This document shows positions 45,516-64,000 of a stretch of DNA of 64,000 nt, piece after piece. A program made the position numbers and the translations under genes. The notes under the pieces were generated by a model. The model searched no databases and was not told where the DNA came from. It saw only the letters and a program-made list of their open reading frames with translations. This stretch comes from Chrysophaeum taylorii (lineage: Eukaryota; Sar; Pelagophyceae; Pelagomonadales; Pelagomonadaceae), in the NCBI GenBank assembly GCA_029834535.1, contig JAQMWT010000020.1:35350-99349 (forward strand). Reading direction: 5' to 3'. How positions within the stretch are numbered: the stretch's first letter is position 1; the number at the start of each line of letters is the position of its first letter.

Positions 45516-46760
45516 ATGAGTTCGAGTTCTTCGTCGTCGTCGTCCTCCGTCAAGATGGTTGTCCGCGCTCAGACGAGCGTCCGGCGATGGATGGGGACGC
45601 TGCCCGAGGGCTTCTCCGAGAAGGAGATCGAGAGCGTGGAGCGCGTGGCCTCAAAAATGTGTCACCTCTTTGCTTTTCAGAGCGCCGACCATCTCCTCGA
45701 AGCTGTCGAACGCAAGAGAGGAACCCTCGTCGAAGGCGCTGGCCGCCTGCTCTTCAGCGCGGTCGTCGCGGCGGCAGGAAAGGTTCCGCACCCCCGCGGG
45801 GGTCGCTGGGGTTGCCTCGCGGTAGAGGAGGAAGACGCTTCGGAGCCCAAATCTCCCGAAAAGCAGCAGCAGCCGGCGTCGATTTCGCGATACTTTCGGT
45901 TCTATACCTCGACGCCCACCCCTTCCGAGGAGCAGCAGCAGCAGCAGCCTCCTCAGAAGGAGGAAGATGAATCCCCCAAAGAAGAGGAGCCGCGTCGTGC
46001 TCCCCCCGCGCGCCTGGAGCGCGCGAAGGAGCGTGCGGCCGCGGTACTCGATAAGCTCGAGGCCGCGGCCCAGCGCGTCGACGTCATCGTCGGTCCGCCG
46101 GTCGGCGCCTGCGCGCGTCGCATCGAGAAGTGGGTACCCTACACCATTGAGCCTTTCGCTCGCCGCCACGCCATCCTGATCGCGTTGTGCTCGCTCTCTG
46201 CCGCGGTCGGCGCCGTCGGTGCCGCGTGCGTCAAGGCAAAACCATGCGCGCGCGCTACGCATCCGGGAGGATTTTTTGTCCGAGAGGACCCCGTTCTGGC
46301 CAAAGTCGCCCAGCGCCTCGGCTTGAACGCAACACAAGACGAATCCTCGTCCAAATCCTCCGTGTTCTCGAAGATATCGTGGCTCGGCTACGACAAGACC
46401 GCGTCATCGCCACCCTCGCCGCCCCCCAAGGCAAAGAAGCCCCGCTTCTCCGCCCCGGGCCTCCTCAAGAAGAACAAACCCCGCACCACCACCGACGCGG
46501 TAAGGCACGTCTCCACGCGCAAGACCATGCCGGCCGGCCACAAACCCGCAAAATCTCTCCTCCGACCTTGGGAAGATCCCGACCACCTCACGACGAGCGA
46601 CGTCGCCATCCTCCCCCCGAACGGCGTCCTCCGTGGCAAGGTCTTCTTCGTCCTCAAGATTGCCGCCCCCATCGTGGCCATTATCTTCGCCCAGTTCTTC
46701 GCCGTCCGATTCATGGTCGGCCAGGGCGTCAAAGGCCTCGTCGCCTCCCTCACCGCGTGA
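45516..46760 (+). CDS. Hypothetical membrane protein with two transmembrane segments
   Basis: The first ATG is at 45,516 (414 residues). The N-terminus has a poly-Ser tract followed by a helical soluble region (residues about 25-90). An acidic Gln/Glu/Pro-rich linker follows, then a coiled-coil-like stretch (ARLERAKERAAAVLDKLEAA). One membrane helix lies at about residues 210-235 and a second at about 380-400. The C-terminal loop is basic and Pro-rich. No family is recognised. An organelle-envelope location is a guess only. Confidence 0.6.
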   Translation: MSSSSSSSSSSVKMVVRAQTSVRRWMGTLPEGFSEKEIESVERVASKMCHLFAFQSADHLLEAVERKRGTLVEGAGRLLFSAVVAAAGKVPHPRGGRWGCLAVEEEDASEPKSPEKQQQPASISRYFRFYTSTPTPSEEQQQQQPPQKEEDESPKEEEPRRAPPARLERAKERAAAVLDKLEAAAQRVDVIVGPPVGACARRIEKWVPYTIEPFARRHAILIALCSLSAAVGAVGAACVKAKPCARATHPGGFFVREDPVLAKVAQRLGLNATQDESSSKSSVFSKISWLGYDKTASSPPSPPPKAKKPRFSAPGLLKKNKPRTTTDAVRHVSTRKTMPAGHKPAKSLLRPWEDPDHLTTSDVAILPPNGVLRGKVFFVLKIAAPIVAIIFAQFFAVRFMVGQGVKGLVASLTA

Positions 46761-47186
46761 GGGGAGAGGAGAGGAAAGGAGCGGAGCCTTGCTGCTCCAC
46801 GAGCTGCGGCCTTCTTGTTGTTCTCATCTTCCCTTCTTTTCTCTTCACACGTGCGCTCCCGAATCATCGAATCACCTCATTAGACGAGAACCAACCCCCT
46901 CCTGTTGTTCGACTAATACCCTTGCGCCGCACGCCCCTGTCGCGTTCATCATGGACACGTGCCCTCGATACCCGCCGCTGCCCGCCGCCGGGTTCCATCA
47001 ACAACAACATCCATTATTCCATTATTATGTTATAACCTGGGCTGCTGGCGCCTTTGCTGCTGCTGCTGCTGGTGGTGTTGTGTAAAGTGTACGACGACGA
47101 AGGGGGGTTATTTGTAAAGTACACGACGAAGGGTTATTTATTACTACTCCTACTACTACTACTCGCGGTCGCGAAGAGAGAGAAGA
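46761..47186. other. Intergenic region upstream of the proteasome gene
   Basis: It contains two near-copies of a GTAAAGT...ACGACGAAGG block (about 47,083-47,132), which may be promoter-proximal repeats, and short CTA/CTG trinucleotide runs. No gene is supported. Confidence 0.5.
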
Positions 47187-47981
47187 ATGGCTCGTCGATA
47201 CGACCGGAACGTGACGACGTTCTCGCCAGAGGGCCGGCTCCACCAGGTCGAGTACGCCGTGGAGGCCATAAACAACGCCGGGACTGCCGTTGGGATCCTG
47301 GCCGTGGACGGCGTGGTGATGGCGGGCGAGAAGCAGAAGGTGACCAAGCTGCTCGAAGCGCCCAAGTCGAGCGAGAAGATCTACAAGCTGGACTCCCACG
47401 TCGCGACGGTGGTCGCGGGACTGACGTCGGACGCGAATATCCTCATCAACGAGGCCCGTCTCGCTGCGCAGCGGTACTTGTATCAATACGGCGAACCGAT
47501 TCCGGTCGAACAACTCGTCGAGCGGGTGTGCAACCACAAGCAGCTCTATACGCAGTACGGCGGCCAGCGTCCGTTTGGCGTCAAGTTTTTGTTCGCGGGT
47601 CACGACAAGCATTTTGGGTATCAGTTGTATCTGTCGGATCCGTCGGGTAATTACTCGGGGTGGAAAGCGACGTGCATGGGACAGAACTCGAACGCCGGAC
47701 AGAGCCTTCTTAAAAACGAGTACGAAGAGACGATGACCACCGACGCCTGCGTCAAGTTGGCCTTGAAGGTCCTCCACAAGACGATGGAGAGCCTCACGGC
47801 CGACAATTTGGACCTCTTTTCGCTCAAGCTCGTCGACGGCAAGATGGTCCACACCGTCTACGCCCACGACACGGTCGCCGACCTCCTCGCCGTCGTCAAG
47901 GAAGAACAGGAAGCGGCCGACCGCGCCGCCGAAGCCAAAGCCGCCCAGACCCTTCAGTCCACGACCACAACCCCGGCTTAG
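47187..47981 (+). CDS. PSMA4: 20S proteasome alpha-3 subunit (PSMA4/Pre9/PAC)
   Basis: The protein has 264 residues. It begins MARRYDRNVTTFSPEGRLHQ, with the proteasome alpha N-terminal signature, and continues VEYAVEAINNAGTAVGILA. KRPFGV-type sequence (GGQRPFGVKFLFAGHDKHFG) and LYLSDPSGNYSGWKATCMGQ are alpha-3 specific. Length fits the subunit (about 250-260). Alpha subunits are non-catalytic and form the outer rings of the 20S core. The C-terminal tail is Ala/Thr-rich. The gene is uninterrupted and convergent with the MOCS3-like gene 16 bp downstream. Confidence 0.95.
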   Translation: MARRYDRNVTTFSPEGRLHQVEYAVEAINNAGTAVGILAVDGVVMAGEKQKVTKLLEAPKSSEKIYKLDSHVATVVAGLTSDANILINEARLAAQRYLYQYGEPIPVEQLVERVCNHKQLYTQYGGQRPFGVKFLFAGHDKHFGYQLYLSDPSGNYSGWKATCMGQNSNAGQSLLKNEYEETMTTDACVKLALKVLHKTMESLTADNLDLFSLKLVDGKMVHTVYAHDTVADLLAVVKEEQEAADRAAEAKAAQTLQSTTTTPA

Positions 47982-47997
47982 GATACAACAACACGCG

Positions 47998-49167
47998 CTA
48001 GTACACCGGAAGGCGGGGGTCGACGTCGCGCGCCCAGGCGAGAATGCCCCCTTCCATGTTGTAGAGGCGGGTGAACCCGAGCTTGGCGAGGGCCTTGCAG
48101 GCGAGGCGGCTCCGGAACCCGGTTTTGCAATGGACGAGGACGTCCCTGTCGCGCGGGAGTTTCGACGCGAGGGTCGCGACGCTTCGGTGCTCGCACAATC
48201 CGTCGGCAAACGGGAGGCCGCAAATGGCCGCCTCCTGGGGCATCCGGACATCCAACACGTAGGGGGTCCACCCGTCCGCGAGGCGCGACGCAACGTCCCG
48301 CGCTCCGATCGTCTCGAACGCAAAAGCGTCCTCTTCGAGTACGGCGGCGGCGGCGGCGGCTTCCGTCTCGTTGACGACGACGACGCGGGGACGCGCGCCG
48401 CGAACCAGCGGGATTTCGTTGAAGCGCATCGCGAGCGCATCGTAGCAAAGCAGGCGGTTCGCGAGAGTCTCGCCGATCGGCCTTCCTATCAGGAGCTTGA
48501 CGACCTCCGTGGCTTGAATGCTCCCGAGGACGCCGCAGAGGACGCCCAAGACCCCGCCTTCCGCGCAGCTCGGGACGGCACCCGGCGGCGGTTTCGCAGC
48601 CAGGACGTCGCGGTACGTCGCTCCCACGCCCGGCGGGTAATTGAAGACCGAGACTTGTCCGGCGAAGCGAAGGATCGCCGCGTACACGTTCGGCTTACCG
48701 CACGCCACGCACGCGTCGTCCACCAAAAACTTGGTGTCGAAGTTGTCCGAGCCGTCGACGACCACGTCGTGGGCTGCGACCAGCTCTGCCGCATTCTCGA
48801 GAGTCAGTCTCTCTCTCACCTGTTCGACGACGCATCCAGGATTCACCCGCTCCAGCGTTTCGCTCGCCGACTGCGTCTTCGGTACCCCTACGCTCCCCGA
48901 GCTGTGGATGATCTGCCGCTGCAGGTTCGACACCTCGACCACGTCGTCGTCGACCACTGTGATGGTCCCGACGCCGGCGGCAGCCAGGTACAGCATTGCC
49001 GGACTCCCGAGCCCGCCCGCGCCGACGCACAGAACTCGCGAATTTTTCAGCTTCTCCTGACCCGCCACGCCCACCTCCCCGAGGATCAGATGCCTCGAGT
49101 ACCGAGCCACTTCCCCGTGGCTCAGATGAGACCACGCCCAACACGATGCTGACAACAACAGCAACAT
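47998..49167 (-). CDS. MoeB/ThiF-type E1-like sulfur-carrier activating enzyme with rhodanese domain (MOCS3/UBA4/MoeZ-like)
   Basis: The protein has 389 residues. The adenylating domain has VLCVGAGGLGSPAMLYLAAA, VSNLQRQIIHSSGSVG and DGSDNFDTKFLVDDAC, with the catalytic-cysteine loop PSCAEGGVLGVLCGVLGSIQ. The C-terminal rhodanese domain has the active-site loop VLVHCKTGFRS. The enzyme adenylates and thiolates sulfur-carrier proteins for molybdopterin or tRNA thiolation. The zinc-binding CxxC of MOCS3 is replaced by TYRD, as in cyanobacterial MoeB, hinting at a plastid-lineage origin. The first ~14 residues are hydrophobic and may be a signal peptide. Confidence 0.9.
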   Translation of the reverse strand: MLLLLSASCWAWSHLSHGEVARYSRHLILGEVGVAGQEKLKNSRVLCVGAGGLGSPAMLYLAAAGVGTITVVDDDVVEVSNLQRQIIHSSGSVGVPKTQSASETLERVNPGCVVEQVRERLTLENAAELVAAHDVVVDGSDNFDTKFLVDDACVACGKPNVYAAILRFAGQVSVFNYPPGVGATYRDVLAAKPPPGAVPSCAEGGVLGVLCGVLGSIQATEVVKLLIGRPIGETLANRLLCYDALAMRFNEIPLVRGARPRVVVVNETEAAAAAAVLEEDAFAFETIGARDVASRLADGWTPYVLDVRMPQEAAICGLPFADGLCEHRSVATLASKLPRDRDVLVHCKTGFRSRLACKALAKLGFTRLYNMEGGILAWARDVDPRLPVY

Positions 49168-49212
49168 CCAGTGTTACTTACTTACCCTGGTTTACAGGCA
49201 TTAGTAGGGTAA

Positions 49213-49489
49213 GAGTTACGTGTCGACTGTCGGTTGGCAGCAGCCGGAACGTTCGCAGTGGGACGGGGTATGGCCGGGGGGCGAAGACGGAAGGTTATCG
49301 GCGAGTTGGTTCTCAGTCACACCCCGGTCTCCTCGTCGCATGGCGACAACAAGCTTGATGGTCACTCGCCGCCGACCGACCTTTCGGCGCTCCTCGTCTA
49401 CAGGCCCGTGATTCCTGACTGGCTCCTGTCGGTCCGGCCTGGCTCCCATGCTCGGGAGAGGTCTGAAGTTAGTTAGTTAGTTAGTCAAC
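49213..49489 (+). repeat. Dispersed repeat with (TTAG)n tail, copy 2
   Basis: The right ~190 bp match copy 1 at 28,866-29,094 in opposite orientation; similarity stops near 49,297. It ends AGAGGTCTGAAG plus about four TTAG units, beyond which the AT-rich island begins. The pattern fits a 5'-truncated non-LTR element; no reverse transcriptase is present. Confidence 0.7.
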
Positions 49490-50462
49490 TACTGCTGCTG
49501 CAAAGAATGGCTAATGGCGACGCACGCCATACGCAGCGGAGCGAGAGGTAAACCGCAACGCCCAAAGTAGGAGCGATTTCTTTCGATGAAGGTACTCCAG
49601 AGAGCTACACTATTATGTGTGGGACACTGGAACATTTCACACCTATCTCTACACGAGGGTTTTCTCTCCTTAATACGACTTTCCCTCCCTCCTTCCTTCC
49701 TTACCCCTTCCGCCCTTTTATCTCAAATTATTATGAAGAACCCAATCTGAAGCTCTTTTCCAACATGGAGTAGGCCTCCAGGTGCGTACCGTCAGGTACG
49801 GGGTTTTCTGTTTAATTAACAGAGACTTCGTTCCTCGTTGTCAGTGCAAACGCTTCTATGGGACCTAATGTCCTTAAGGAGTCAGGGCTTAAATCCCTAC
49901 CTTGTGTAGTAGCATGTGACAAGCGGAATGGTCTGTACACGCCTAAGACTGCACGCAGTCTATACCATGTACCCGGAGAGGGTCAAATCTCTCCAGGTTA
50001 TGGGCCCAGATGCGTAGGTGTGTCAGCCCAACTGTGTTGTACGTATAAATGGAGTGATCAATTTACGCCTGATCACGAGTATAATGCGACAATGTGTTTG
50101 GCGGTGGTCTACTGTACATATTAGTTGTGTGACGGTATGTGCCCACCAGTTAAATTTGTTTGTGACCGAGTTGGGTCGGTCACTGGTCGTATGCACTCGC
50201 ATAACCAATATAATTAAAATTTTTCCTATACAAGCCGCGGAAACTTGTACGGTTTTTTCCTTCCATTCCCCAACAAAAGACTGACTGCTCGAGAACTCAA
50301 GTCGCCCTGTTTTAAATAGCATGTTGATTTGTTTGGTCTTGTCAATAAGCCCACGTTTAAAATAGCGTACTGTACATAGAACCCGCACTTGAGAAACCCT
50401 TCATTCTTATGTGTCGAATATGTCTATCAATCCTATAACCTATTTCTTAATTGGTCACAATC
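49490..50462 (+). other. Leader or possible LTR-like region of the AT-rich element
   Basis: No protein is recognised. A TATA-like GTATAAATGG lies at about 50,042. Short repeats of TACTGTACATA occur at about 50,112 and 50,368. No matching downstream copy was seen that would define it as an LTR, nor a primer-binding site of the common initiator-tRNA type. Confidence 0.35.
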
Positions 50463-53165
50463 ATGTCAAAACAAAAAATTACATCCACCACGGATATCTA
50501 CAAACAAGAACAAATCCTCGTTGATAAGATTAGCGCAGGAATGCGTTTCCAAGACAATTCAACCAAGGTGAGCTTGCAAATTGAGGTGCTTCGCAGGCAT
50601 ATGACAAGTCCATATGTGGACGCGTTATTCTGCTTCGATTCATATGAAGCTCATACCCGAAATGCTCCGGAATATAATCAACTTCTTGAACAAGAAGCTG
50701 ATATCATCTTCGCTCAATGGAAAGCCGAACAAGTAAACGATTTAAACTTGCCTGATGAAGATACCCTGCCTGACCATATTAAAACTTGGCACGTCAACTC
50801 ATCGCATCAATTATCAATTGATGTCCTTAATAAACTTGAACGACTTTACTACCAAGAGTCGTACAACACCATTCGTCCCGAATTAAATGAGGATGTCAAA
50901 CGTGTCCTCACTTTATTAAATACCCGATTCCCTAAATCAATTGTGTATGATTCATCTCTAACTAACATGTCCTTTACAGGTCTCTCTAATGCCGACTGGA
51001 TCAAACACTGCGAAACTTATGCTGGTTTCTTGTACACATTCTTTAACTTGGAGTCGCAGGAAAAGCCCGCACTCGCTATGTGGCCTCAACTAAAGAAGAT
51101 TTATGCAACTACTGCACATCCCAATAAATTACGTGCTATAATGCTTTTAGCTTACCATTACTATGAGACAGTGTCTTGTACAGATGTAACTGAGCTTAAA
51201 TCTCAGTTTAACCGAATGTTTCTAAATGTTAATTGGTATGCCCATGTTTTTGTCGAACAACTCCTTGCCTTCCAGTCTCAGGCAAAGCAATTAAATAATG
51301 ATGAAGCATCAATCCAATTTAATAACTCCATAATCACTCTTAAAGCTCACGAGGAGATCTACCGTCTATATGCTAATTCCTCCGATCACGAGCGCTATTC
51401 TCAATCTTTATTGGAATGGTGTAAACTCTACGAGACACGCCCTAGGAACAACTCGACTCACGATCCTGAATTGTTAAAGCTAGTTGATCCTAACGACGTT
51501 CGCCCACTATTAGAATTCTTGTTAAAGATATACAATGAAACAACGTTTTCCTCTAACCGACGCTTGGATAAACCCGCTTCTTGGATCCCGTACATCCCTG
51601 GTACTACCGCTACCAAGCCACCTAAGGTATTATTGATGGATACTATTCATCAATCACACGACTCTCTAAACAACGCTTACTCGTTGTTAGCTACTGTAGC
51701 TGGACAGTCTGGCTTCAACGCTCGTAAGCTTCGTAATGCAAAAGTTAAAGCATCGACAATTTCACCTCGTGACACATCGTACTATCGTCCACCCTCAAAT
51801 TATAACGTCAAAGGTACCAGCTTCGATCGTCCTGTCTACTCATCTTCCTCTAACCGCAATGCACGCTCTAATATGTCTCTTATGGACCGGGCTACTTATC
51901 AAGTTGATCGTCTTCGCCACCTGTTTGGTAAATTACAGGAAGCGAATCCCAACCCCTCTACCGATTCTAAAATGGTACAGGAGGAAATGAAAAGCTTGTT
52001 GAGTACCCTCTGGATAACCGCTTCTCAAGCTTCGACACAGTCCTTAGATCCTGACGAAGCCACCCAAGTTCATCTCTACTTATCTCGAGTTGATACTATG
52101 TCCAATACCATATCGAACCTCTTAGAAGCCGATAAGGAATCTCTTGTTTCAGAAGAAAAGCATAAAACTGAAACATCTGCTCCTGAAGCGTCCCCCAGTG
52201 ATGCGGAGCAGAGGGGGACTGCTGATACAGAGAAAATGTTCCACACTTTTCTGTCCATTAAAGATGATGAAATCGATAACATCCCTCAGCCGCTATTGCA
52301 GCACATAAATGCTAAAGCTCAGAATGCTATCGTTCGTCGTCAAGCTCGGGAAACTTCCTCGCACTCTGAGCTCCCCAGTAGTCTATCCAATGAAGATAAT
52401 GAAGATGGTACAAATCCCCCTGTGTTGCTACCAAAATCAAATACTGGTTTTACACTCGTCGTTGTGCCTTCCGAACAAACGCTAAATTTCATGACACAGT
52501 ACGTGTTTGGTCAAAGCTCAACGCATGCCTGTTATGCAACAATGCCTAAACTGTACAACGAGTGCAATTTGCCGCTAATGACTACGCCAGGATATGCTGA
52601 CACATGTGCTTCTCAACATGTAATTAACTTTAAACGTTATGCTGATCCTATTCACATCGTAAAGCTACCCGAGTCCTTATCACCTGCTATCCAGACTGCT
52701 ACGGATACGCAGAGAATCACACATGCTATGATTATAAGGACCGTCATTCCCGCTCTCCCAAAGCATCCAAATGAAGGATATGTAAAGCTAGACGTTGCGC
52801 TTTTTCTACCCAAGCAAAACGACCATAACGATCCCGTTCTGCACATCATCAGTATGACCCAATGGGGAGAAGATAAACTTGGTATACATCTTTATGGAGT
52901 TGAATTTAAAGGACAATCATCTATCCCGAGTAAAATTGATGATAATGTCAAGATTACTTTGTTTAGACTCAGTAACCTGTTGCCAACTCTACCAATTTAT
53001 TCGCTACAACAAGCAAAAGCGCGTAAAATGGAACTTCGCTCACTACAGTTCAGACTATGTGCTTTTAATGAACAACGCGAAATGCGCAAACTATATTCCA
53101 CCCTCATGGAACGCGTAATTTACGTCCCATGGCTCAAAACCATCCTGGAGTCAATGCATTCGTAG
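50463..53165 (+). CDS. Copia-like Gag-protease polyprotein
   Basis: The protein has 900 residues from the first ATG. Residues 1-350 are helical and charged, Gag-like, without a CCHC zinc knuckle. Residues about 400-480 are Ser/Asn/Arg-rich; about 490-560 are helical; about 560-700 are acidic and disordered. At residue 713 GYADTCASQHVINF fits the Copia aspartic-protease site D[S/T]GAS.H, with Cys in place of Gly. Downstream, VALFLPKQNDHNDPVLHIIS is followed by MTQWGEDKLGIHLYGVEF, which parallels the Copia LYVPxLxxNLLSVSQL block. The frame stays open over 2.7 kb, so the copy is young or selected. No integrase or reverse transcriptase follows. The Gag part is assigned by position and composition only. 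Confidence 0.65.
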   Translation: MSKQKITSTTDIYKQEQILVDKISAGMRFQDNSTKVSLQIEVLRRHMTSPYVDALFCFDSYEAHTRNAPEYNQLLEQEADIIFAQWKAEQVNDLNLPDEDTLPDHIKTWHVNSSHQLSIDVLNKLERLYYQESYNTIRPELNEDVKRVLTLLNTRFPKSIVYDSSLTNMSFTGLSNADWIKHCETYAGFLYTFFNLESQEKPALAMWPQLKKIYATTAHPNKLRAIMLLAYHYYETVSCTDVTELKSQFNRMFLNVNWYAHVFVEQLLAFQSQAKQLNNDEASIQFNNSIITLKAHEEIYRLYANSSDHERYSQSLLEWCKLYETRPRNNSTHDPELLKLVDPNDVRPLLEFLLKIYNETTFSSNRRLDKPASWIPYIPGTTATKPPKVLLMDTIHQSHDSLNNAYSLLATVAGQSGFNARKLRNAKVKASTISPRDTSYYRPPSNYNVKGTSFDRPVYSSSSNRNARSNMSLMDRATYQVDRLRHLFGKLQEANPNPSTDSKMVQEEMKSLLSTLWITASQASTQSLDPDEATQVHLYLSRVDTMSNTISNLLEADKESLVSEEKHKTETSAPEASPSDAEQRGTADTEKMFHTFLSIKDDEIDNIPQPLLQHINAKAQNAIVRRQARETSSHSELPSSLSNEDNEDGTNPPVLLPKSNTGFTLVVVPSEQTLNFMTQYVFGQSSTHACYATMPKLYNECNLPLMTTPGYADTCASQHVINFKRYADPIHIVKLPESLSPAIQTATDTQRITHAMIIRTVIPALPKHPNEGYVKLDVALFLPKQNDHNDPVLHIISMTQWGEDKLGIHLYGVEFKGQSSIPSKIDDNVKITLFRLSNLLPTLPIYSLQQAKARKMELRSLQFRLCAFNEQREMRKLYSTLMERVIYVPWLKTILESMHS

Positions 53166-53280
53166 CTGCCTTACATACGCAAGCATTTCCCACCTGTATG
53201 ACGCAAGGTTACAACACGTTTGCTCCATACAGTAACTTCATCTCCTAGCCCACGAATACCTACAGTAACTCTACTCTGGG

Positions 53281-54423
53281 ATGTCCACTCCTCCATTCTT
53301 GGCTTGCGCTTCTAATGACTTGCAAATCAACATCAACGTTAAAGTTCTTGTTGAGAGCGACGACAATATCACGCACATGCTACGACGACGTTTTGGTAAT
53401 TCCATCGAAGTTTTCCCATCCCTACCTAAGGTTTTGACACATCTCCATCGAGCATCGGACGTTGAACGTGCACGATATTACACTGACATAGTGGAATTGA
53501 CATCACCATGCACGAATCGCAACATAATCAATGGGAGATCCATTTCCACCTTCGAGCGCGATATGGATGATTCCTTGTTCCCAAGTGCTCTAAGTGTACT
53601 TGAGCTTTTAAAGCCGCTTGTTCTCTTCATGGAAATGACACCACCACACTCCGCATCGTATGAAGATCATATTCGAGTTGCTAATCTCATCTTCTCAACG
53701 ATGCACTATACGGTGGACATATGTGACCGATTTCCATGCTATCTATGTGGAGATTATCAAGCCAGAGAAAGATGGATCCTCGTCGCACGCAAATATAACA
53801 CCGGCTCTCTTGATCTGCTTTCATGGCCTAATAAACGAGTCACTTCCTTTCTGGATATTGCTGGCCACGCTAATTCCATCAGTCGCAAGCTAATAGTCGA
53901 CGAACCTTGGACGCAGGTCTTTCCTGACATACCATTCGTGTCCACACCTAAAACCTACAATATTTTCAGTCGTTCAGGATCCGTGCGCTTAACCGTGACC
54001 GAGCTTGAAACCTTAACTATGCTGTTCCTTCGTCTGCACTCTAACAAAACAGTCGAGCATCCCTGTCAAGATGAAATGGAAGGCATTTCTAACTTTCGTC
54101 TGGGATTCTTGATTAATTCAAGAAAACCACTTGCTTGCATGAGATCCCCTATTGAACTCAAAGCTTTTGTGCTCCTCTATAATATTATGGGAAGATTATT
54201 CCCTCAATCCATCACATTACCTGTGTCCTTTCGTATTACAACTATCGAATCTAATCAACCATCTCACAGGTTATTCTTAAATAAATCCTCTACTTCACCT
54301 AGTATTTACATCACTGGTGGAAGACACACAGGCGGAAACATAACAGTGTCTAACTCTTCTTCTAAATACCAGGCACATATAAATATTTTTGGCGAAACCT
54401 ACACCCTCCTAACAACTAACTAA
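53281..54423 (+). CDS. C5-cytosine DNA methyltransferase-like protein in the retroelement
   Basis: The protein has 380 residues. Ordered DNMT motifs: II VLVESDDN (Glu25), IV DIVELTSPCTNRN (catalytic Cys77), VI LVLFMEMTPP (Glu118), VIII GDYQARERWILVARK (Gln160, Arg162, Arg164), and IX SVRLTVTELETLTM (about 235). In M.HhaI the same residues are Cys81, Glu119, Gln161 and Arg165, so spacing from motif VI to VIII is identical (42) and from IV to VI differs by three. The target-recognition segment would be residues 170-230. Motif I is degenerate (FLACAS for FxGxGG) and motif X is not clear, so SAM binding may be altered. It starts 115 bp after the Gag-protease ORF. DNMT genes in retrotransposons are known in dinoflagellates and charophytes. 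Confidence 0.72.
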   Translation: MSTPPFLACASNDLQININVKVLVESDDNITHMLRRRFGNSIEVFPSLPKVLTHLHRASDVERARYYTDIVELTSPCTNRNIINGRSISTFERDMDDSLFPSALSVLELLKPLVLFMEMTPPHSASYEDHIRVANLIFSTMHYTVDICDRFPCYLCGDYQARERWILVARKYNTGSLDLLSWPNKRVTSFLDIAGHANSISRKLIVDEPWTQVFPDIPFVSTPKTYNIFSRSGSVRLTVTELETLTMLFLRLHSNKTVEHPCQDEMEGISNFRLGFLINSRKPLACMRSPIELKAFVLLYNIMGRLFPQSITLPVSFRITTIESNQPSHRLFLNKSSTSPSIYITGGRHTGGNITVSNSSSKYQAHINIFGETYTLLTTN

Positions 54424-54495
54424 AACTAACTTCAAACCTCTCCCGAGCATGGGAGCCAGGCCGGACCGGCAGGAGCCGGTACGGAATCACAGAGG
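54424..54495 (-). repeat. Dispersed repeat with (CTAA)n end, copy 3 (short)
   Basis: About 65 bp match the tailed end of copies 1 and 2: ACTAACTTCAAACCTCTCCC, then the CATGGGAGCCAGGCCGGAC block. The orientation is opposite to copy 2, so the two tails face each other across the AT-rich element. The ORF2 stop codon sits in the CTAA run. Confidence 0.7.
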
Positions 54496-54815
54496 AAAAT
54501 CACGCAGTTGGGGCAGAGGCGAGGGACGAGGACGGACTTGTTGATGGTGTACCGCCACTGCGCGCGGTCTTATGCGAGGTCGTGCAAAAGCGTCGCAGGC
54601 CGCGGACGTGTTGGTCCACGAACAATCGACCTGTCCGTCGCGTTCTGCCCAACCGAGCGAACCCATCCCAGCGCGGACTTTCCGGGTGCTAACCGGCCAG
54701 CCCGGCAGGCACCGTCTCACTCCGGGACGGCCGGGGCCGCCGCAGGGAGCAAGCGTGTTAGGCGCCGTCCTCCATCGCAACCAACGGTTAGCGATCGCAG
54801 GGGTTAGGGCACACG
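54496..54815. other. GC-rich fragment of unknown origin
   Basis: Base composition returns to GC-rich for about 320 bp between two AT-rich stretches. Both strands have open frames, but neither resembles a known family. The algal-like composition suggests a piece of host or other repeat DNA. Confidence 0.35.
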
Positions 54816-56085
54816 ATCCTGAAATCGATAAGACTGCTTCTCTCGAACCAGTTACCGGTTTTCTTTGGCTTTGCCAAGCATACCATCATAATAATGAAAA
54901 TCAAGACACGCGTCGTCTAGTACAAGCATTGGTTCCCTATACTTCTCCTGTATTTCACGATTCTTTTGTCTTCTACCCTCAGGAAAATCGTCTCGAATTT
55001 ATCGACAAAATGTTTGCGTTAAGTGACATGCATTTGTCCCAAAGCAGATATTTGGGCTAACATCATATAGGAAGCTGGAATAGGTCATTCTATATACTCC
55101 CAGGAAAATTCGTGGATTGCTAATATCGATGTACCATTCGTGTCTTTCGACATATCGGGTCATCACGCGCCAACCGGCTATTCAATCAATTTTCGGCACC
55201 GCCTATGCCTCGCAGGATATCATCGCAAATGCTATTCCAGCTGGAACATATCATGCATATCATCATAAAGCTTTCCAGCTTGCGTAATTAACGCTATCAC
55301 CATCGTTTGACCCTGATCAGCTTCTCTAACCAAAACTATCACCATCGCCTTCCGTTCTCCAATATATTCTTCACAAATTCCCAGATACATCAAACATTAC
55401 ACCAGAGTTCCATTACAAACTCTTCTAAAAATATGTAATACTCTAACCACGAACTTCCTTCTTGTCATATTGATTTAGTAGCTCGTGCCTTCCTCTCAAC
55501 TACCTCGTCCGCAGATATATCATCTCCTACTAACTAACTAACTTAAACTAACTAACAAAAGTAACTAAAGAAAAACAAATACCCCTTATAACGCCAAGGC
55601 AGCTCCGTGAGAAGCATGCACCCTTCGATAAGAAAGTCCATGCTAGGGGCACACTGCATTTCGAGATGCGCAACAACGAGCTACCATTTTCACAACTTCA
55701 CCATTCTAGTGATTCTCAAGCTATAAGCTGTTCAGGTTATTGCCAGTCCTGGACACCACCCATCTGACGTACCCTACCGTAAGTTTCTGTGTGGATTGTA
55801 CGATGATAAAAACGCTTTCCTCATCCACACCACCTTCAAGCAACACCATTCGAAAAATTTTTCAACCCTGGCTTCGCGTGCTGTGCGTCGTATTCTGTGC
55901 TCTCGGAATGGGGATCCTTTCGACATATCATTGTTTCAAGTGTCTCATTTCTAAATTTCTGTTAGTGTACTTTTGTCGTAGCACTAACTCCAGCGAATTT
56001 TGTAACGCCCTTGAGTTTGTCCGCAATTTTTGCTCTACTCATGTGTCAGGCATTCATCTGAAACAAAGCCTTTGATCCTTTGGCA
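54816..56085. other. Degraded AT-rich segment, possible second mobile-element remnant
   Basis: Composition resembles the methyltransferase element. A frame runs from about 54,800 to 55,060 (ending SDMHLSQSRYLG) with protein-like composition, and another short frame lies at about 55,725-55,950 (VPYRKFLCGLYDDKNAFLIH). Both end in stops and no family is recognised. (CTAA)n runs occur at about 55,527-55,560. It could be an old copy of the same or a related element. Confidence 0.35.
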
Positions 56086-56089
56086 ACCC

Positions 56090-57124
56090 TGCTGGTCATG
56101 TCATGTCGACGCCCGCGCGCATGGTAATCACGTCCCGCCTGTTCTTCAGATTCGCCACGCCGCTGTTCATCAATTCAGCCACTGCTTCCAGTCCGGATAC
56201 GATCATGCCGATCAAGCACCCACTCGCCCCGGCAATACATCATCCATGAGATATTCACGGCCCTAACGTTTCCCCGGCGTACATCATTGAACGTCCTCAT
56301 CATGGAGACCGGTGCCAGCCAACGTGGCGTAGAAGGAGGCAATGGTTCCGAACAGGCTTTGAACCTGATGTCAGCAGACCCATAGTCGCGGCCGCCAGTT
56401 GGGGCACCATATGCGCCGAAGTGTTTCGTCGCAGCGAGAATGGTGTTTGGGGCTGCCAGGCTTTCGCCCTGATAGCCCTCGACCTGCCGCGACTGCCATA
56501 CGAGACCCCAAATATGAGTCCGCACCAGCACTCTCGACGATTCTGCCCCATCGCGGGTCACGCGCAATGTCAACCATCGGGGCGAACGTCCAGTGAAGAC
56601 CCGCTGACGACGCCTCGTCAGCGGAGATGACGGCTTCCCGCCAGACGTCTGGATCCCATGATGCCGCCATTGCCAGTGGTACCGGAAAAATCGTTCGGTA
56701 GCCGTGAACTACGTCCATCGCAAGGAGCGGGATGCCCCAGACGGCTTTCTTCAATGGCGACCTTTGGAGCTCACCCAGCAGCAGCGCCCGCAACATGAAG
56801 ATAGGAGCCAATCTCGCCATTCCGGACTTTGCCGAGTTCTTCAGGGGTGAGCTTTTGAATTCAGCGACTTGCGCAGCCACCCCTGCGGCCTGGTTTAATT
56901 GACCGAGTTTTCATCAATGGTCATCTGGGCCACCAACGAACGTACGCGCTGTGATGCACTCGTCGACTCACATTCGGCGTGCAGGCTCTGGCCTCGGAAA
57001 TGTCAGAAACGACGGTGTCAGCAGGTGCGGTAGGCCTTGCACAGGCATGGCCAAGCGGTCCCAACAAGGTGGTCGCCAAGGCGCCAATCGAACCGGCCTT
57101 TGTGCCCGTGTAAGCATCGGTCAT
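56090..57124 (-). pseudogene. GH3 beta-glucosidase (BglX-like), truncated and frameshifted
   Basis: Read on the minus strand from a probable signal peptide near 57,124, pieces in different frames match GH3 N-terminal domains in order: LVAQMTIDENSV, GIPLLAMDVVHGYRTIFPVP, HWTFAPMVDIARDPRWGRI, AATKHFGAYGAPTGGRDY, and a last piece ending ITMRAGVDMT. At least three frameshifts separate them. The order is right but the gene stops at the boundary with AT-rich DNA, at about 345 of the usual ~750 residues. GH3 enzymes release glucose from beta-glucosides, often in the periplasm. The bacterial origin is clear. Confidence 0.8.
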
Positions 57125-57239
57125 AATTCCCTCCCCATAAGTGTCGCGTCACCGTTTCGTTGACACAATCATTGGGGGAGTGGCTATTTATGTCAACGCT
57201 AACATTTTCCGTCCAAGAGTGTTCGATGTCTGTGACCGT

Positions 57240-58196
57240 TTAGTGCAGCGGGGCGTGGGTATACGTCAGGCTTTTTACGAGGCCGATCTCGCGGAGCCGT
57301 TCCATGAGATAATCCTGAGCCGTGATCGGGCTTCGGCTGCCGCCTTCAGCGACGCAGCCAGGTAGCGCTTCGATCAGGTAATCCTGATTGAAGTGCAAAA
57401 GAAGGAGCGTCAGTAGCGCGGGAATTTTGCGCGCTCGGCAGATGGGTTAAGCACGCGGTGCGTTGTGGACGGCAGTACACGCCGTCAGGCGCTGTAGCAT
57501 GTCTCCGCAATTGATGACCAGCGCGCCACGGGCGGATTAACGTCCAGCCATTCGCCTGAACTGTGCAAGACCTGGAGGCCGGCCTCCTCAGCACTCAATA
57601 AAAGCGTGATGACATTAATGTCCTCATGCGCGCCGGCGCGGACCGTGCCTGCGGGTGGAGGAGTTTGCTGCGGGGGTAGTGGAGCAGACGCAGGATCGAG
57701 TTGCCGAAATTGACCTTGTCGTCGAACCAATCCTCGGCGAGCCCAAGATGCAAGGCGACACCTTCCAGAATTTCAGGCCCATTTGATCCAGTGCATCAAA
57801 AAGTGCGGTTGTGGCTTCGTCAAAGCAGGCACTTCGGGAACGCTGGGTGTGTCGGCATCGTTGCGCGATAGGGGCTGTCCTCCGGTAGGGCGCGACCGGT
57901 ATGCCAAAATTCCTTGAGATCGGCATGAGCGTTGCCCTTGGCGTTTTCCGTCCCAAAGGCCGTATAGCCGCGCTGGCCACCCCCTTGGCGTCCGTCATAT
58001 TTCAGCTTTCCGCGTCCGGCAGAGCAAAGAAAGCCTGGGTCGCATCAGATTGCGGTCAATCACGCCCTGATCGACTGTATGGCCGGACACCACTGCGAAC
58101 CCTGTCTCTCGAAAGGGCGGCAGAGCGCATCTCCGAAGCTCTTTTATCGGATTTGAACAGGTCGAACGGGACGGGTTTGAAATAGTCGGTCATCAT
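57240..58196 (-). pseudogene. Isopenicillin-N-synthase-family 2OG-Fe(II) oxygenase, frameshifted
   Basis: Starting at the Met at 58,196 (MMTDYFKPVPFDLF), successive pieces in different frames match the family: FGFAVVSGHTVDQGVIDRNL, YTAFGTENAKGNAHADLKEF (corrected by frame changes), HEDINVITLLLSAEEAGLQV with the His-x-Asp metal pair, ALVINCGDMLQRLT, and the C-terminal ITAQDYLMERLREIGLVKSL. Total extent matches a full-length ~320-residue protein with about four or five frameshifts. Such enzymes oxidise small molecules using iron and 2-oxoglutarate. The second His region is damaged. Confidence 0.8.
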
Positions 58197-58388
58197 TATC
58201 GGGGTCTCTGGCAAGAATTAGAGGGGAGATTAGCACAGAGGGATGGGCCGACCATACGTAACGCCACATATGTAGCAGTTGCGCGTGCACATTGAGTTTG
58301 GCCGTGCTTTCGTGGAGATTTTGACGGCTCCACCGAATTCAGGGCTTGCGATCAGGATGGGGTTTCTCTAGACCCCATATTCGGCGGT

Positions 58389-58481
58389 GGAGAGGTGGCC
58401 GAGTGGCTGAAGGCGCTCCCCTGCTAAGGGAGTATACGGTGTTGAGCCGTATCGAGGGTTCGAATCCCTTCCTCTCCGCCA
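58389..58481 (+). tRNA. tRNA-Ser (anticodon GCU), CCA encoded
   Basis: The acceptor stem GGAGAGG pairs with CCTCTCC; the anticodon loop CTGCTAA gives GCU on a CTCCC/GGGAG stem; a long variable arm (TATACGG/CCGTATC) and the T-loop GGTTCGAATCC follow. The discriminator is G and the CCA is encoded. All stems pair. It is a bacterial class II tRNA and the only undamaged gene in the bacterial segment. Confidence 0.96.
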
Positions 58482-58611
58482 CACCGTTTGAATTGTAGGA
58501 CGCCTGAACGGTCAGCTCTTCTGCCGAGCACACATTGGGCAAATAAGGCCTCCATCAGAGAGTGGGTCTAAAAAAGCCCAATCTACTGACGCTGAAATCT
58601 TTTGGCCGGTG

Positions 58612-59418
58612 TTGTCAGCGGAACCGGACTTGAGGTAACCAATCTTGGGTTTAGCCTCAAAATGGTCAAAAACCCGTTTCGCTACTTCAAAATCTCACCT
58701 GAGATCATCCAGCTCGCTGTACTCCCTATATGCCCGCTTTCCGCTCTCACTTCGCAATATCGAGGATCTGCTCCACGAGCGCGACATAGATGTCTGCCAC
58801 GAAAGCGTCCGCCTATGGGTCGATCGGTTCGGGTCTTACTTCGCTCATAAGATCCGGAAGCAGCGTTCGGATCCATGCGGCGCAGCCTGCCAATGGCAGT
58901 GGCACCTGGACGAGGTCTTCGTGAAGATCCGCGGCGAGAGGCACTATCTTTGGCAGGCTGTCGACCACGAAGGCGAAGTTCTTGAGGTCTTTGTCACGAA
59001 GAAGCGCGACAAAGCCGCCGCGCTGAAATTCCTAAAGAAAGCAATGAAGAGATGCGGTAATCCACATGTCGTCGTGACAGACAGATGCTCTTCTTATCAG
59101 GCGGCTATGAAAGTGATTGGGAACGAGGGCCGCCAATAGACTGGTCGGCATCTCAACAATCGCGCCGAGAATTCCCACCTGCCCTTTCGACGAAGAGAGC
59201 GAGCAATGTCGCGATTTCGTCGTATGCGAAGTCTGCAGAAGTTCGTTTCAATGCATTCGTCAGTGTACAATCACTTTAATTTCGAAAGGCACATCAACCC
59301 CAGAATTCAATTCAAACAGAAACGCGACGCCGCTCTTCGCGAATGGCGCGACCTTCTCGTCGCCTAGCACCTGCTCGTTCACGAATAATGGAGACAGGTT
59401 CGCGTTAGACTGACACCA
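58612..59418 (+). mobile_element. IS6-family insertion sequence
   Basis: About 0.8 kb carrying one transposase gene. Imperfect inverted ends are visible: GGTGTTGTCAGCGGAAC at the left and the complement of a GGTGGTGTCAGTCTAACGCG-like end at about 59,400-59,418. Size and gene content are typical of IS6. Target duplications (8 bp in this family) were not confirmed. Confidence 0.75.
58662..59367 (+). pseudogene. IS6-family transposase, two frameshifts
   Basis: The Met at 58,662 starts MVKNPFRYFKISPEIIQLAV, then the frame changes near 58,715 to give ARFPLSLRNIEDLLHERDID, CHESVRLWVDRFG, and the DDE domain WHLDEVFVKIRGERHYLWQA and VVVTDRCSSYQAAM. A second frame change near 59,135 leads to LNNRAENSHLPFRRRERAM, containing the catalytic Glu, and the IS6 C-terminus YNHFNFERHINPR to DALREWRDLLVA. 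All three acidic catalytic residues can be located. The copy is inactive as read. Confidence 0.88.
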
Positions 59419-59581
59419 CCCAGTAAGTGTATCATCTTAACTGCGCGGTCCGTTGAAGGCCTCGTCGAGCAAATAACCTCCAAGAGTCTCCAGCCATTCA
59501 ATAGATTACCGCTTCACTATGTCCAAGCCGGAGGAAATTGTTGTCTTTACATATAGACTAAATTGAGCTTTGGATCGTGAC

Positions 59582-59856
59582 CATGCACCGTCTGGTAGCT
59601 CTTCTCTGTGCGATTTTCGCCATATCACCATTCCTGTCAGGGGCGGCGCATACGCGTGCGCATGCTGAAGAGCTGCATCATGATGCCAATCGATCATCAT
59701 CTTGATGAGCGGGGCCTCGGTCATGACACTCTGTCCGATCTGGACGATGAGCACTCGCACGAGCTTGATCATGAGGATCACCCTGCGGAACTTCATTTTG
59801 TTGCGCTGGCATTTCTTCACCGACTGGTCTCGTCAAGTCAGTTGTGCCTTTTGTAA
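59582..59856 (+). pseudogene. Small His/Asp-rich secreted protein of a metal-efflux operon, frameshifted
   Basis: The protein begins MHRLVALLCAIFAISPFLSG, a signal peptide, and passes by a frameshift at about 59,700 into a His/Asp/Glu-rich stretch (LDDEHSHELDHEDHPAELHF) that could bind metal. Small proteins of this sort often precede CBA heavy-metal efflux genes in alphaproteobacteria. Function is inferred from composition and position. Confidence 0.5.
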
Positions 59857-60000
59857 GGCTTGTATCCGGTCCGCCATCCTATCGCGGACCCATCACCTGA
59901 AAGATCGGATCCCGAACGAATTTCAGCCTGAACATAATATCGTACATTGTTACGCCATGCGGGCGTCAATGTTTGCTTGTTCAGCCTGGAGTAAGTTTCA

Positions 60001-61283
60001 TGGCACTTAAAATTATAGGCTGCGCCTTGATCATGGCGTTGCCAGTTCTGCCGGTCAGCGCGCAGACATCCGTTTGTGAAGCAGGCGAAGATCTCGAAAA
60101 TTGTGACGTCCTCTCAAGCCATGCGGGCTGCATTGACGCCGACCTGCGACCCATCCTGGCGGACAAGGGTGTGGCCCTGGCCCGCACGGAACGGACGATT
60201 GCTGCACTTCGCCCAATGGATACGATCAGTCTCGAAACTGAAAATTTTCAGGCATCGGTCTGGCGGGCGAGATCGACAATCTGGAAGTGACAGGGCGATT
60301 CTCAAGGACGTGGGAGCGCGGTGGCAAAGAGAGGCGCGCGAAGCGGTGGCGCGCGCAGGGATAGCCGTTGCAGAAACTGAGCGGGAAATCATCGAGCACG
60401 ATATCGCTCACGCGATTGAGACGCTGTATGTTGAAGCTGTCCTCCTGGAGCGCCGAGCCGATCTCGCCTGCAAGCGGGTCGCGATTTCACGGTCTTTGAA
60501 GGAAATTGTTGATCGCCGCGTGGAAGCTGCGAGACCCACTTCTTAACGTACGTAACTGCGGGCAGTGACGGACCTCGCTAGGGCTGAGGCAGAAGCGCTT
60601 CAATACCACCCGCCTCGCCCGCCGTAGCGTATGACCATTGCCAGTATGTGGGGCAGGGCGGAGGATTTTGCGATCGAGCCTGAATTCATTGAGCGCCGCT
60701 TGAAATCAGGCAGCTGGATATTCCAGGTGTGTACTCACCTGAATTCGAAAAACTGCAGGCGGAAGATCGCCGCCTTGCGGCTGAGACAGAACTTCGCAGG
60801 GCGGAAGCAGTGCCAGATGTGACTTGGAGTGCGGGTGTTCGGAAATTCGGATATCGAGAAGACATTGGCGTCATCGCCGGTGTCACCATCCCTCTGGGTA
60901 CGCAGAGTCAGTCAGCTGCCAAAGCTGCCAAACACCAGGTTCAACAAGAACTCGTCGCTGTCCGCGAACGTGTGCTGCGCCAGCAATTGCTGCGTCAGGC
61001 AGTTAACTATCAGCGCGCGGCGCAAAATGCGCAGGCCAGCATACGAAGACCCGCCGAACACGACGTTTTACTTCCTGAAACGATCCGCGCGCTTGATCTG
61101 GCCCAAGAGGGGTATGACCGCGGCGCATTTTCGTACCTCGAAATCATTGATGCGCAGCGAACACTTGCTGAACTGCGTGAACAGCGTCTCGGCCATATCG
61201 AGACCTTCATCCTGAACGAAGCTGCTCTTTCCCGCGTCACGAGGCGGGAAGACTGGCGATCCATCGTGGAGACTGCACAATGA
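60001..61283 (+). pseudogene. TolC-like outer-membrane channel (CusC/CzcC-type), frameshifted
   Basis: The N-terminal signal peptide begins at 60,001 (MALKIIGCALIMALPVLPVS). Later pieces in other frames have the coiled-coil composition of outer membrane efflux proteins: VAETEREIIEHDIAHAIETL, VTWSAGVRKFGYREDIGVIA, GVTIPLGTQSQ, and the C-terminal LAQEGYDRGAFSYLEIIDAQ. At least three frame changes occur. The stop overlaps the start of the next gene as ATGA, an operon arrangement. Confidence 0.8.
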
Positions 61284-62516
61284 ATCCTCGCATTCTTTAT
61301 CCTGTTGCCGCTGCAGTAATTGCAGCGCTGATGACCCTCACCGGCTGCGGCAGCCAGAATTCAGCGCCAGGCGATGGCGACAATATTTATACTGGGGCCG
61401 GAGAATCTGAAACTGCGGAAGGGCCTCGCGGAGGACGTCTGTTGGAAGAGGGGATTTTGCGCTGGAAATGACGATTTTGAGTCAGGTGTCCCACTGAGTA
61501 TCAATTTATCCTTTCCTTGCAGGTGAACCTGTTGATCCGTCCCGTGTCATGCTTCTGACAGTTCGCCTCGACAAACTTGGAGACGAGGATATTTTCGAAT
61601 TCTCTCGGTTCAGGATTATCTGAAAGGCGACGGTGTCGTTACCGAACCGCATTCATTCGAGGTCTTCGTCGACGCCCAACATCAGGCGTCTTACTCTTGG
61701 AGTTATAAGATCCAGGAGACGCACCACGATTGCCGACGACAGCTGTGTCCATGGGTGTCAGACTGAAATACCGGTGCTGCGGTGATCAGGGACATAATTC
61801 CTCTCTCGGGCGTGACGACCCTCTCGCCATCTGCGACCGCGGAGGTTCGGGCCCGCTACCCCGGTCCAGTCAGTCGGTCAGCGTCGGCGTGAATGATATG
61901 GTTCGCAGGGACAGACGCTGGCGCGCGTCAAGCTCCTCCAGTCTTCAGAAGTTATTCGGTCACCGCGCCGGTATCGGGGACAATCCTTGAACGCAACACC
62001 AATGCGGGCGATGTCGCGGGCGATCAATCTCTCTTCACGATCGCTGACCTCAATCAGTTGGAGGCGCGTCTGCGTCTTCCCTAAGGATGCAGGGAAGGTG
62101 AAAACAGGTCAGAGCGTCCGCATGGGTGTTGCTGGGTCTGACCTCGAGTTTGCGTCAGAGATCACCCGCTTTCTGCCGATATCCAGAATGTCGGAACTCG
62201 TATCGCCGTAGCCTCCGTGCCGATCGAAGCGGAAATGACCCTGGCATGCGGGTCATGGCGAGCGTTATGACCGAAGAGTCTGAAGTGCCGCTCGCCGTGA
62301 GAATCCGGGCTGCAGAGCTTTCGTGACTTCACCGTGGTGTCTACCTGAAATGGAGCGAGACCTACGGGTCGGATGCTCGACCTGGGAGGAAACGATAATT
62401 GAATTTGTCCAGAAGTCCTTGGCGGGTTAGATCCCGGCACTGGAATATGTCAGCGCCAATTCCTTCCTCATCAAAATAGACATTGAAAAAGTCAGCGCCA
62501 GCCACGACGCCATTAG
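61280..62516 (+). pseudogene. Periplasmic membrane-fusion lipoprotein (CusB/CzcB-type), frameshifted
   Basis: The start overlaps the previous stop. The N-terminus has a lipobox (MTLTGCGSQ). Recognisable pieces are VTAPVSGTILERNTNAGDVA, GDQSLFTIADLNQLEARLRL, and the C-terminal EYVSANSFLIKIDIEKVSAS, in differing frames. It would link the outer channel and the inner RND pump. Confidence 0.8.
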
Positions 62517-62529
62517 AGGCAGCCATAGC

Positions 62530-64000
<1,471 letters not shown>

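Follow-up and report, generated by a model that had tools for sequence, protein, structure and literature searches.

A broken C5-cytosine methyltransferase domain from the Pol polyprotein of a Copia-type retrotransposon in the alga Chrysophaeum taylorii

The open reading frame (ORF) at positions 53281-54423 of the 64,000-nucleotide stretch of the Chrysophaeum taylorii genome analysed here (the window) is a damaged fragment of a C5-cytosine DNA methyltransferase (DNMT) domain. This domain makes up the N-terminus of Pol in a retrotransposon. The complete element almost certainly has the layout LTR, Gag-protease, UGA stop codon, DNMT, integrase, reverse transcriptase (RT), RNase H, LTR and belongs to the Ty1/Copia type, the identity of the DNMT domain included. 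A sequence-only reading of the same DNA had described a methyltransferase as the second ORF of a retrotransposon-like element. The present finding exceeds that first description in one way, as the methyltransferase is a whole Pol domain common to elements of other records. It is also weaker, given that the window copy is dead, that one relative has lost its catalytic Cys and that the activity is predicted.

The window contains a dead copy of the element

The following features were delineated in the window.

49596..56081, + strand: Copia-type LTR element copy, 3'-truncated; the sequence shared with other copies begins at 49590-49596 and extends to 56081 at most, and the RT and the 3' LTR are absent from the window
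49596..49995, + strand: 5' LTR of ~400 bp; the same stretch is present at both ends of copy L055
49996..50014, + strand: putative primer-binding site, adjoining the 5' LTR, with presumed tRNA complementarity
50451..53165, + strand: ORF1, Gag-protease, with a premature TAG at 53163-53165 and a DTCAS motif, without Pfam match
53199..53201, + strand: in-frame stop that separates Gag-protease from Pol, a TGA with a C after it; same stop position in 29 of the 30 other copies read
53202..53276, + strand: start of Pol, in a frame different from that of the reported ORF (tblastn of P0003 residues 1-25, 96%)
53281..54423, + strand: reported ORF, covering DNMT motifs II to VIII plus some of the region after them (ORF list, alignment and predicted fold)
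54415..54809, no strand assigned: GC-rich insert of ~395 bp that ends the reported ORF; other copies are continuous without it (query positions 4515 and 4911)
54810..56081, + strand: decayed continuation of Pol, comprising the rest of the DNMT with its motif X region and the start of the integrase (tblastn with P0001 and P0003; blastn to copies)

The reported 380-residue ORF is present in the ORF list and, as had been described, lies downstream of the Gag-protease ORF, whose protease-type DTCAS motif is found at residue 712 of the ORF1 frame read from 50466. Rather than being the element's second ORF in its own right, it is a part of the N-terminal Pol domain cut out by damage. Pol begins at 53202, shifts frame near 53270 and continues as the reported ORF, whose ATG is located inside motif I; after 54414, Pol is interrupted by the insert, which causes the stop. 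A free-standing methyltransferase gene was ruled out, since both the start and the stop of the ORF stem from this frameshift and this insert within Pol. Past the insert, the tblastn match to Pol resumes at 54806, and the part from residue 559 onward (motif X) matches from 55216, while the motif IX stretch of the window corresponds to a gap in the tblastn alignments with the Pol proteins. The decayed Pol reaches the integrase core and ends before the RT. The window copy is a dead element.

A direct repeat of the LTR was sought in 46001-64000 and none was found, so the window has the 5' LTR only. In L055, the LTRs occupy 2-309 (clipped at the start of the locus) and 8119-8520 and are 91.9% alike over 310 columns. 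The stretch at 49996-50014 looks complementary to what we take to be the internal part, or anticodon region, of initiator tRNA-Met; the half-tRNA priming of copia represents a precedent for internal tRNA complementarity. The GC content of the AT-rich stretch is 0.41-0.47 in 2-kb windows over 50001-56000.

The start of the insert (54414-54490) is repeated in inverted orientation at 49408-49485, just upstream of the element, and the stretches 49240-49485 and 54414-54490 recur in several other loci, forming another small repeat family. The region immediately past the truncation of the element, 56371-56880 on the - strand, encodes a glycoside hydrolase family 3 N-terminal domain (PF00933, E 4.4e-19), and a tRNA-Ser (gct) gene is found at 58389-58481 on the + strand. 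Bacterial contamination was ruled out by the Sec7, M24 peptidase and ThiF-rhodanese genes within the same window.

Copies with longer reading frames define a Copia-type family

Searching all 697 contigs of the genome (70.8 Mb) yielded at least 111 protein matches to the DNMT ORF, 100 of them at ≥88% identity. They represent ~108 distinct places, three of which hold two pieces each; these copy counts are lower bounds, as 108 of 1186 candidates were scored. The coordinates on contigs C25 and C521 are identical, and the two could be a single contig. The pairing of the DNMT with Gag-protease, which the sequence-only reading had proposed to look for elsewhere, is present in other genomic copies.

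The frame is open much further in several copies, with lengths of e.g. 1184 and 1464 codons. In L053, the DNMT frame continues through two integrase-like Pfam matches that do not reach the cut-off (22.7 bits for SH3_retrovirus and 16.4 bits for rve) into the start of RVT_2, and the next ORF matches RVT_2 at 111.8 bits for a cut-off of 31.6. In the Pol protein P0001, integrase-like Pfam matches at residues 778-874 come before the start of RVT_2 at 1419. The integrase thus precedes the RT, which is the Copia order. At Pfam E≤1, a tyrosine recombinase was not listed for P0001 and P0002, and an rve-type integrase was listed weakly. At 18 or more of the 111 DNMT matches, RVT_2 follows downstream in the same orientation at a distance of 2.5-6 kb, including 10 at 4132-4195 bases, a lower bound given that the best 150 of 1670 RVT_2 candidates were used. 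Among these best 150, none lies upstream of a DNMT match and none on the opposite strand. The order protease, integrase, RT and RNase H with an RVT_2-type RT fits Ty1/Copia, and L055 possesses both LTRs.

ORF1 and Pol are in one frame with a single intervening stop in 29 of the 30 copies read at the junction; the remaining one, L010, diverges upstream of it. The stop is TGA in 28 of the 29 copies and TAA in one, and it is always followed by C. UGA-C is a leaky stop context. The TGA is kept in L053 and L055, which are at ~0.5 synonymous changes per site from L014. We infer from these sequences that Pol is probably made via UGA readthrough. No excess RNA structure 3' of the UGA was detected in the five copies folded (z -0.55 to 1.10).

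The domain has the predicted fold of C5-methyltransferases and is under purifying selection

No Pfam family was found in the reported ORF up to an E value of 10. The gathering score of PF00145 is 22 bits, and the best window-family copy tried, L055, reaches 15.4 bits. A related second family (see below) passes with 46.3 bits; the PF00145 check suggested in the sequence-only reading thus failed for the ORF itself and came out positive only by way of these relatives. The profile of the window family together with relatives from the ENA database matches that of the second family with a probability of 96.7 (E 4e-10); without the ENA relatives, the match is weak (probability 20, E 0.0011). In PDB sequence searches, the window family (A1) gave chance matches only, such as leptin. 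Weak matches to the methyltransferase 8yf3 were obtained with A3 (E 0.95) and A2 (E 0.84), and A3 gave another weak match to phage Gp2.7.

The suggested structural check supported the reading. For the predicted folds of two different members, the PDB matches at E≤0.001 are C5-methyltransferases only, with M.HhaI ranked first and Dnmt2 structures among the best matches. The model of the window ORF itself is of low confidence (pLDDT 45.4). The ~108 genomic places, the dN/dS values well below 1 and these fold matches place the observation above chance, and the central claim of the earlier reading, i.e. a divergent C5-methyltransferase fold adjoining Gag-protease in a Copia-type retrotransposon with many genomic copies, is upheld. 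Such domains can fall below the Pfam cut-off, and therefore surveys based on PF00145 may undercount them.

Motifs II (VLVESD), IV (SPCTNR), VI (LFMEMTPP) and VIII (CGDYQARERW) occur in the reported ORF in the order described, but motif IX, which had been placed there as well, is outside it. In P0001 numbering, motif I spans residues 22-32, motif IV contains Pro104-Cys105, motif VI Glu146 and motif VIII Gln188-x-Arg190-x-Arg192; motifs IX (528) and X (555-568) are past the position of the insert. The Cys-Glu-Gln spacing had been described as almost identical to that of M.HhaI; the spacing of the Cys, Glu and Arg residues is similar in the two. E119, R163 and R165 of that enzyme are named in the titles of PDB fold matches, and we take its catalytic Cys to be C81. 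M.HhaI has the same motif order, but it is a free bacterial enzyme with 12-20% identity in structural alignments, and the window family differs from it by a changed motif I and by ~320 residues that separate motifs VIII and IX.

We read the catalytic residues in 36 distinct copies, taken from the best-scoring matches, so that intact ones are favoured. The Cys, the Gln and both Arg residues are present in all 36, the Pro in 34 and the Glu in 35, the remaining copy having a stop. Motif VI reads MEM/EMT instead of ENV. In motif I, the SAM site (FxGxG), the sequences are LLCSGMSTP and LCYGxxTES, with only the first Gly kept. The Pro-Cys, the Glu and both Arg residues are also found in all seven clusters of ENA polyproteins, at 51-57% identity, with a His in place of the motif VIII Gln. 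In contrast, P0005, an MMETSP relative, has no Pro-Cys, while its Glu and QxRxR stretch are kept; this loss of the catalytic Cys is the main result against general catalysis.

Of the 36 copies, 12 have an open frame without gaps over the whole domain; their dN/dS values (Nei-Gojobori) are 0.074 for the I-VIII block, 0.109 for the region from VIII to IX and 0.128 for IX-X. In the four copies with a readable integrase, they are 0.170, 0.093 and 0.183 for the DNMT, compared with 0.051 for the integrase. Purifying selection acts across the DNMT domain, and it is stronger on the integrase in those four copies.

Relatives of the domain in other elements

The window family and the seven ENA polyprotein clusters are 27-34% alike in the DNMT (7/7), 26-30% in the integrase (7/7) and 35-36% in the RT-RNase H region (6/7, as P0006 ends before the RT). 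The order protease-DNMT-integrase is kept in the ENA polyproteins. This shared order fits, without proving, one capture and common descent of the DNMT in a Copia lineage. In the tree, which covered the element domains and two host DNMTs on long branches, P0005, itself a long branch, groups with the window family (A) and subfamily B (L054) at 99/98. Searches of viral contigs and of bacterial and archaeal genomes with peptide patterns and tblastn returned no relatives and thus pointed to no close viral or prokaryotic source in the searched sets.

The genome also contains a second family of retroelement-like loci, with a PF00145-positive DNMT (L003-L008 on contigs C4, C120, C64, C326, C683 and C564, respectively). 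It was read at six of the 55 PF00145 matches other than those of host-type loci L001 and L002. Four of the six (L005-L008) have a DGGAS protease-type motif upstream, and three (L003, L004 and L007; E 0.022, 0.001 and 1.5e-5) have an integrase zinc-finger-like stretch downstream. A third DNMT-bearing subfamily, ~45% alike, is represented by L054:2435-3886, where a Gag-protease ORF ends in a fused DNMT. It lies directly upstream of a window-family Pol, in a nested or recombinant copy.

Proposed role of the domain and alternatives

We lean slightly towards a proposal in which the reported ORF is the remnant of a Pol DNMT domain that, in intact copies, is produced by readthrough, packaged and used on cDNA. 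Some ribosomes would read through the UGA to yield Gag-Pol, and the DNMT would thereby be packaged alongside the protease, the integrase and the RT. It would then methylate cytosines of the element cDNA in the particle, before integration, and the new copy would arrive with a host-like mark, possibly to its benefit. The proposal draws on the layout of L053 and of the 18 linked places, the fold matches, the homology to the PF00145-positive second family, the catalytic residues in the 36 copies and the seven ENA clusters, the low dN/dS in the 12 copies, the conserved UGA-C and the precedent of PMC5890265. Counting against it are the loss in P0005, the altered motif I, the EMT in place of ENV, the weaker constraint on the DNMT motif blocks than on the integrase in four copies, the lack of a Pfam match in the ORF, the lack of RNA structure after the UGA in the five copies folded and the undepleted CpG content. 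For active methylation of the cDNA taken by itself, we consider the chances to be just short of even.

Some of these unfavourable points also bear on an alternative that we regard as unlikely, though not negligible, in which Pol retains a catalytically weak or dead methyltransferase fold that serves to bind nucleic acids or as a structural module. P0005, with its Glu and QxRxR stretch but no Pro-Cys, would suit such a module, as would the altered motif I and the motif blocks less constrained than the integrase in the four copies; the retention of the Cys, Glu, Gln and Arg residues in the window family (with the bias of the best-scoring copies) and of the Pro-Cys, the Glu and both Arg residues in the ENA clusters argues against it. 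Methylation of RNA, e.g. of the tRNA primer or the genomic RNA, in the manner of Dnmt2-type enzymes, appears improbable. The fold class is the same, Dnmt2 structures are among the best matches and an RNA role has been suggested for the LINE-borne DNMT in a passage of PMC5890265, but a DNA enzyme, M.HhaI, ranks first, although ranks between DNMT classes decide little. Finally, the lack of a Pfam match in the ORF, the chance-level PDB sequence matches of the window family, the weak profile match without ENA relatives and the low-confidence window model might point to a chance ORF or another protein family with coincidental motifs. This reading is very improbable and largely contradicted by the exclusive C5-methyltransferase matches (E≤0.001) of two members, by the profile match obtained with the ENA relatives and by purifying selection on a family present at ~108 places.

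Returning to methylation of the element cDNA, a broader scenario can be put forward tentatively. One ancient capture would have set a C5-methyltransferase between the protease and the integrase of a Copia element, and the lineage would then have spread through distinct eukaryotes; here the enzyme would be made only by UGA readthrough and would methylate the cDNA in the particle, so that insertions arrive marked. If true, the capture would predate the published DIRS, LINE and Gypsy cases and differ from them in structure, the DNMT being a core domain of Pol. These elements may mark their own DNA. Hosts silence transposons by DNA methylation, which makes a methyltransferase kept by an element puzzling: it might serve camouflage, self-restraint or protection of the cDNA. 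A Copia lineage whose DNMT lies between protease and integrase, under selection and with about a hundred copies in a 70.8-Mb genome, would make the question testable on particles and cDNA.

Comparison with described retrotransposon DNMTs

In its passages on retrotransposons, the work of De Mendoza et al. 2018 (PMC5890265) reports DNMTs in LINE, DIRS and Gypsy elements, shows CG methylation by retrotransposon DNMTs in a heterologous test and states that the Copia elements of Symbiodinium are without any DNMT domain. SymbioDIRS-Dnmt3 and SymbioLINE-Dnmt of Symbiodinium, as presented there, resemble our case in that a C5-methyltransferase is carried by a retrotransposon with many copies under purifying selection; they are, respectively, a DIRS element with a tyrosine recombinase and a LINE, whereas the present element has the Copia order and, by weak Pfam matches, an rve-type integrase. 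KnitGypsy-Dnmt3 of Klebsormidium nitens, from the same passages, has the DNMT inside the Pol of an LTR element, with Ka/Ks <0.2, but as a Gypsy element its RT comes before the integrase, unlike the integrase-first order and the Copia-type RT (RVT_2) found here.

One sentence of PMC12344493 (2025) places DNMT3 members in 'LTR Copia and DIRS' elements and gives no detail. Copia is thus named as a DNMT carrier, but the mention cites the 2018 paper, whose text, in the passages concerned, says Gypsy. In Ectocarpus, the Sola1-1_Ec32 ParB-MTase, as portrayed in the relevant part of PMC12477816, is likewise a case of presumed self-modification by a stramenopile transposon; in contrast, that element is a DNA transposon with a separate N4/N6 methyltransferase gene. 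The pertinent passages of PMC9998398, PMC3145265 and PMC10449503 describe no Copia DNMT. Next to the published LINE, DIRS and Gypsy cases, a Copia lineage with a DNMT between protease and integrase is new; the comparison covers open-licence literature, and an earlier description elsewhere is possible.

Host methyltransferases and substitution patterns

Full PF00145 matches are found at loci L001 and L002, neither of which showed any retroelement parts. L002:1006-3537 is a long host-type PF00145 gene (E 7.9e-18). Judging from their motifs, we take L001 to be DNMT2-like and L002 to be DNMT5-like; L001 presumably also contains a light-harvesting-like ORF, which would give the host the look of a photosynthetic chromist.

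The CpG observed/expected ratio is 0.95 in the element, which is thus not depleted, and 1.27 in the rest of the window. Comparison of 11 copies shows more third-position transitions at CpG than at other sites (C/T, 0.228 vs 0.152; G/A, 0.233 vs 0.032), the copy pairs being non-independent. This excess would fit methylation of the copies at CpG. At non-CpG third positions, the coding strand of the DNMT region shows far more C/T than G/A differences (0.152 vs 0.032) in copies L010-L034, whose pairs are likewise non-independent.
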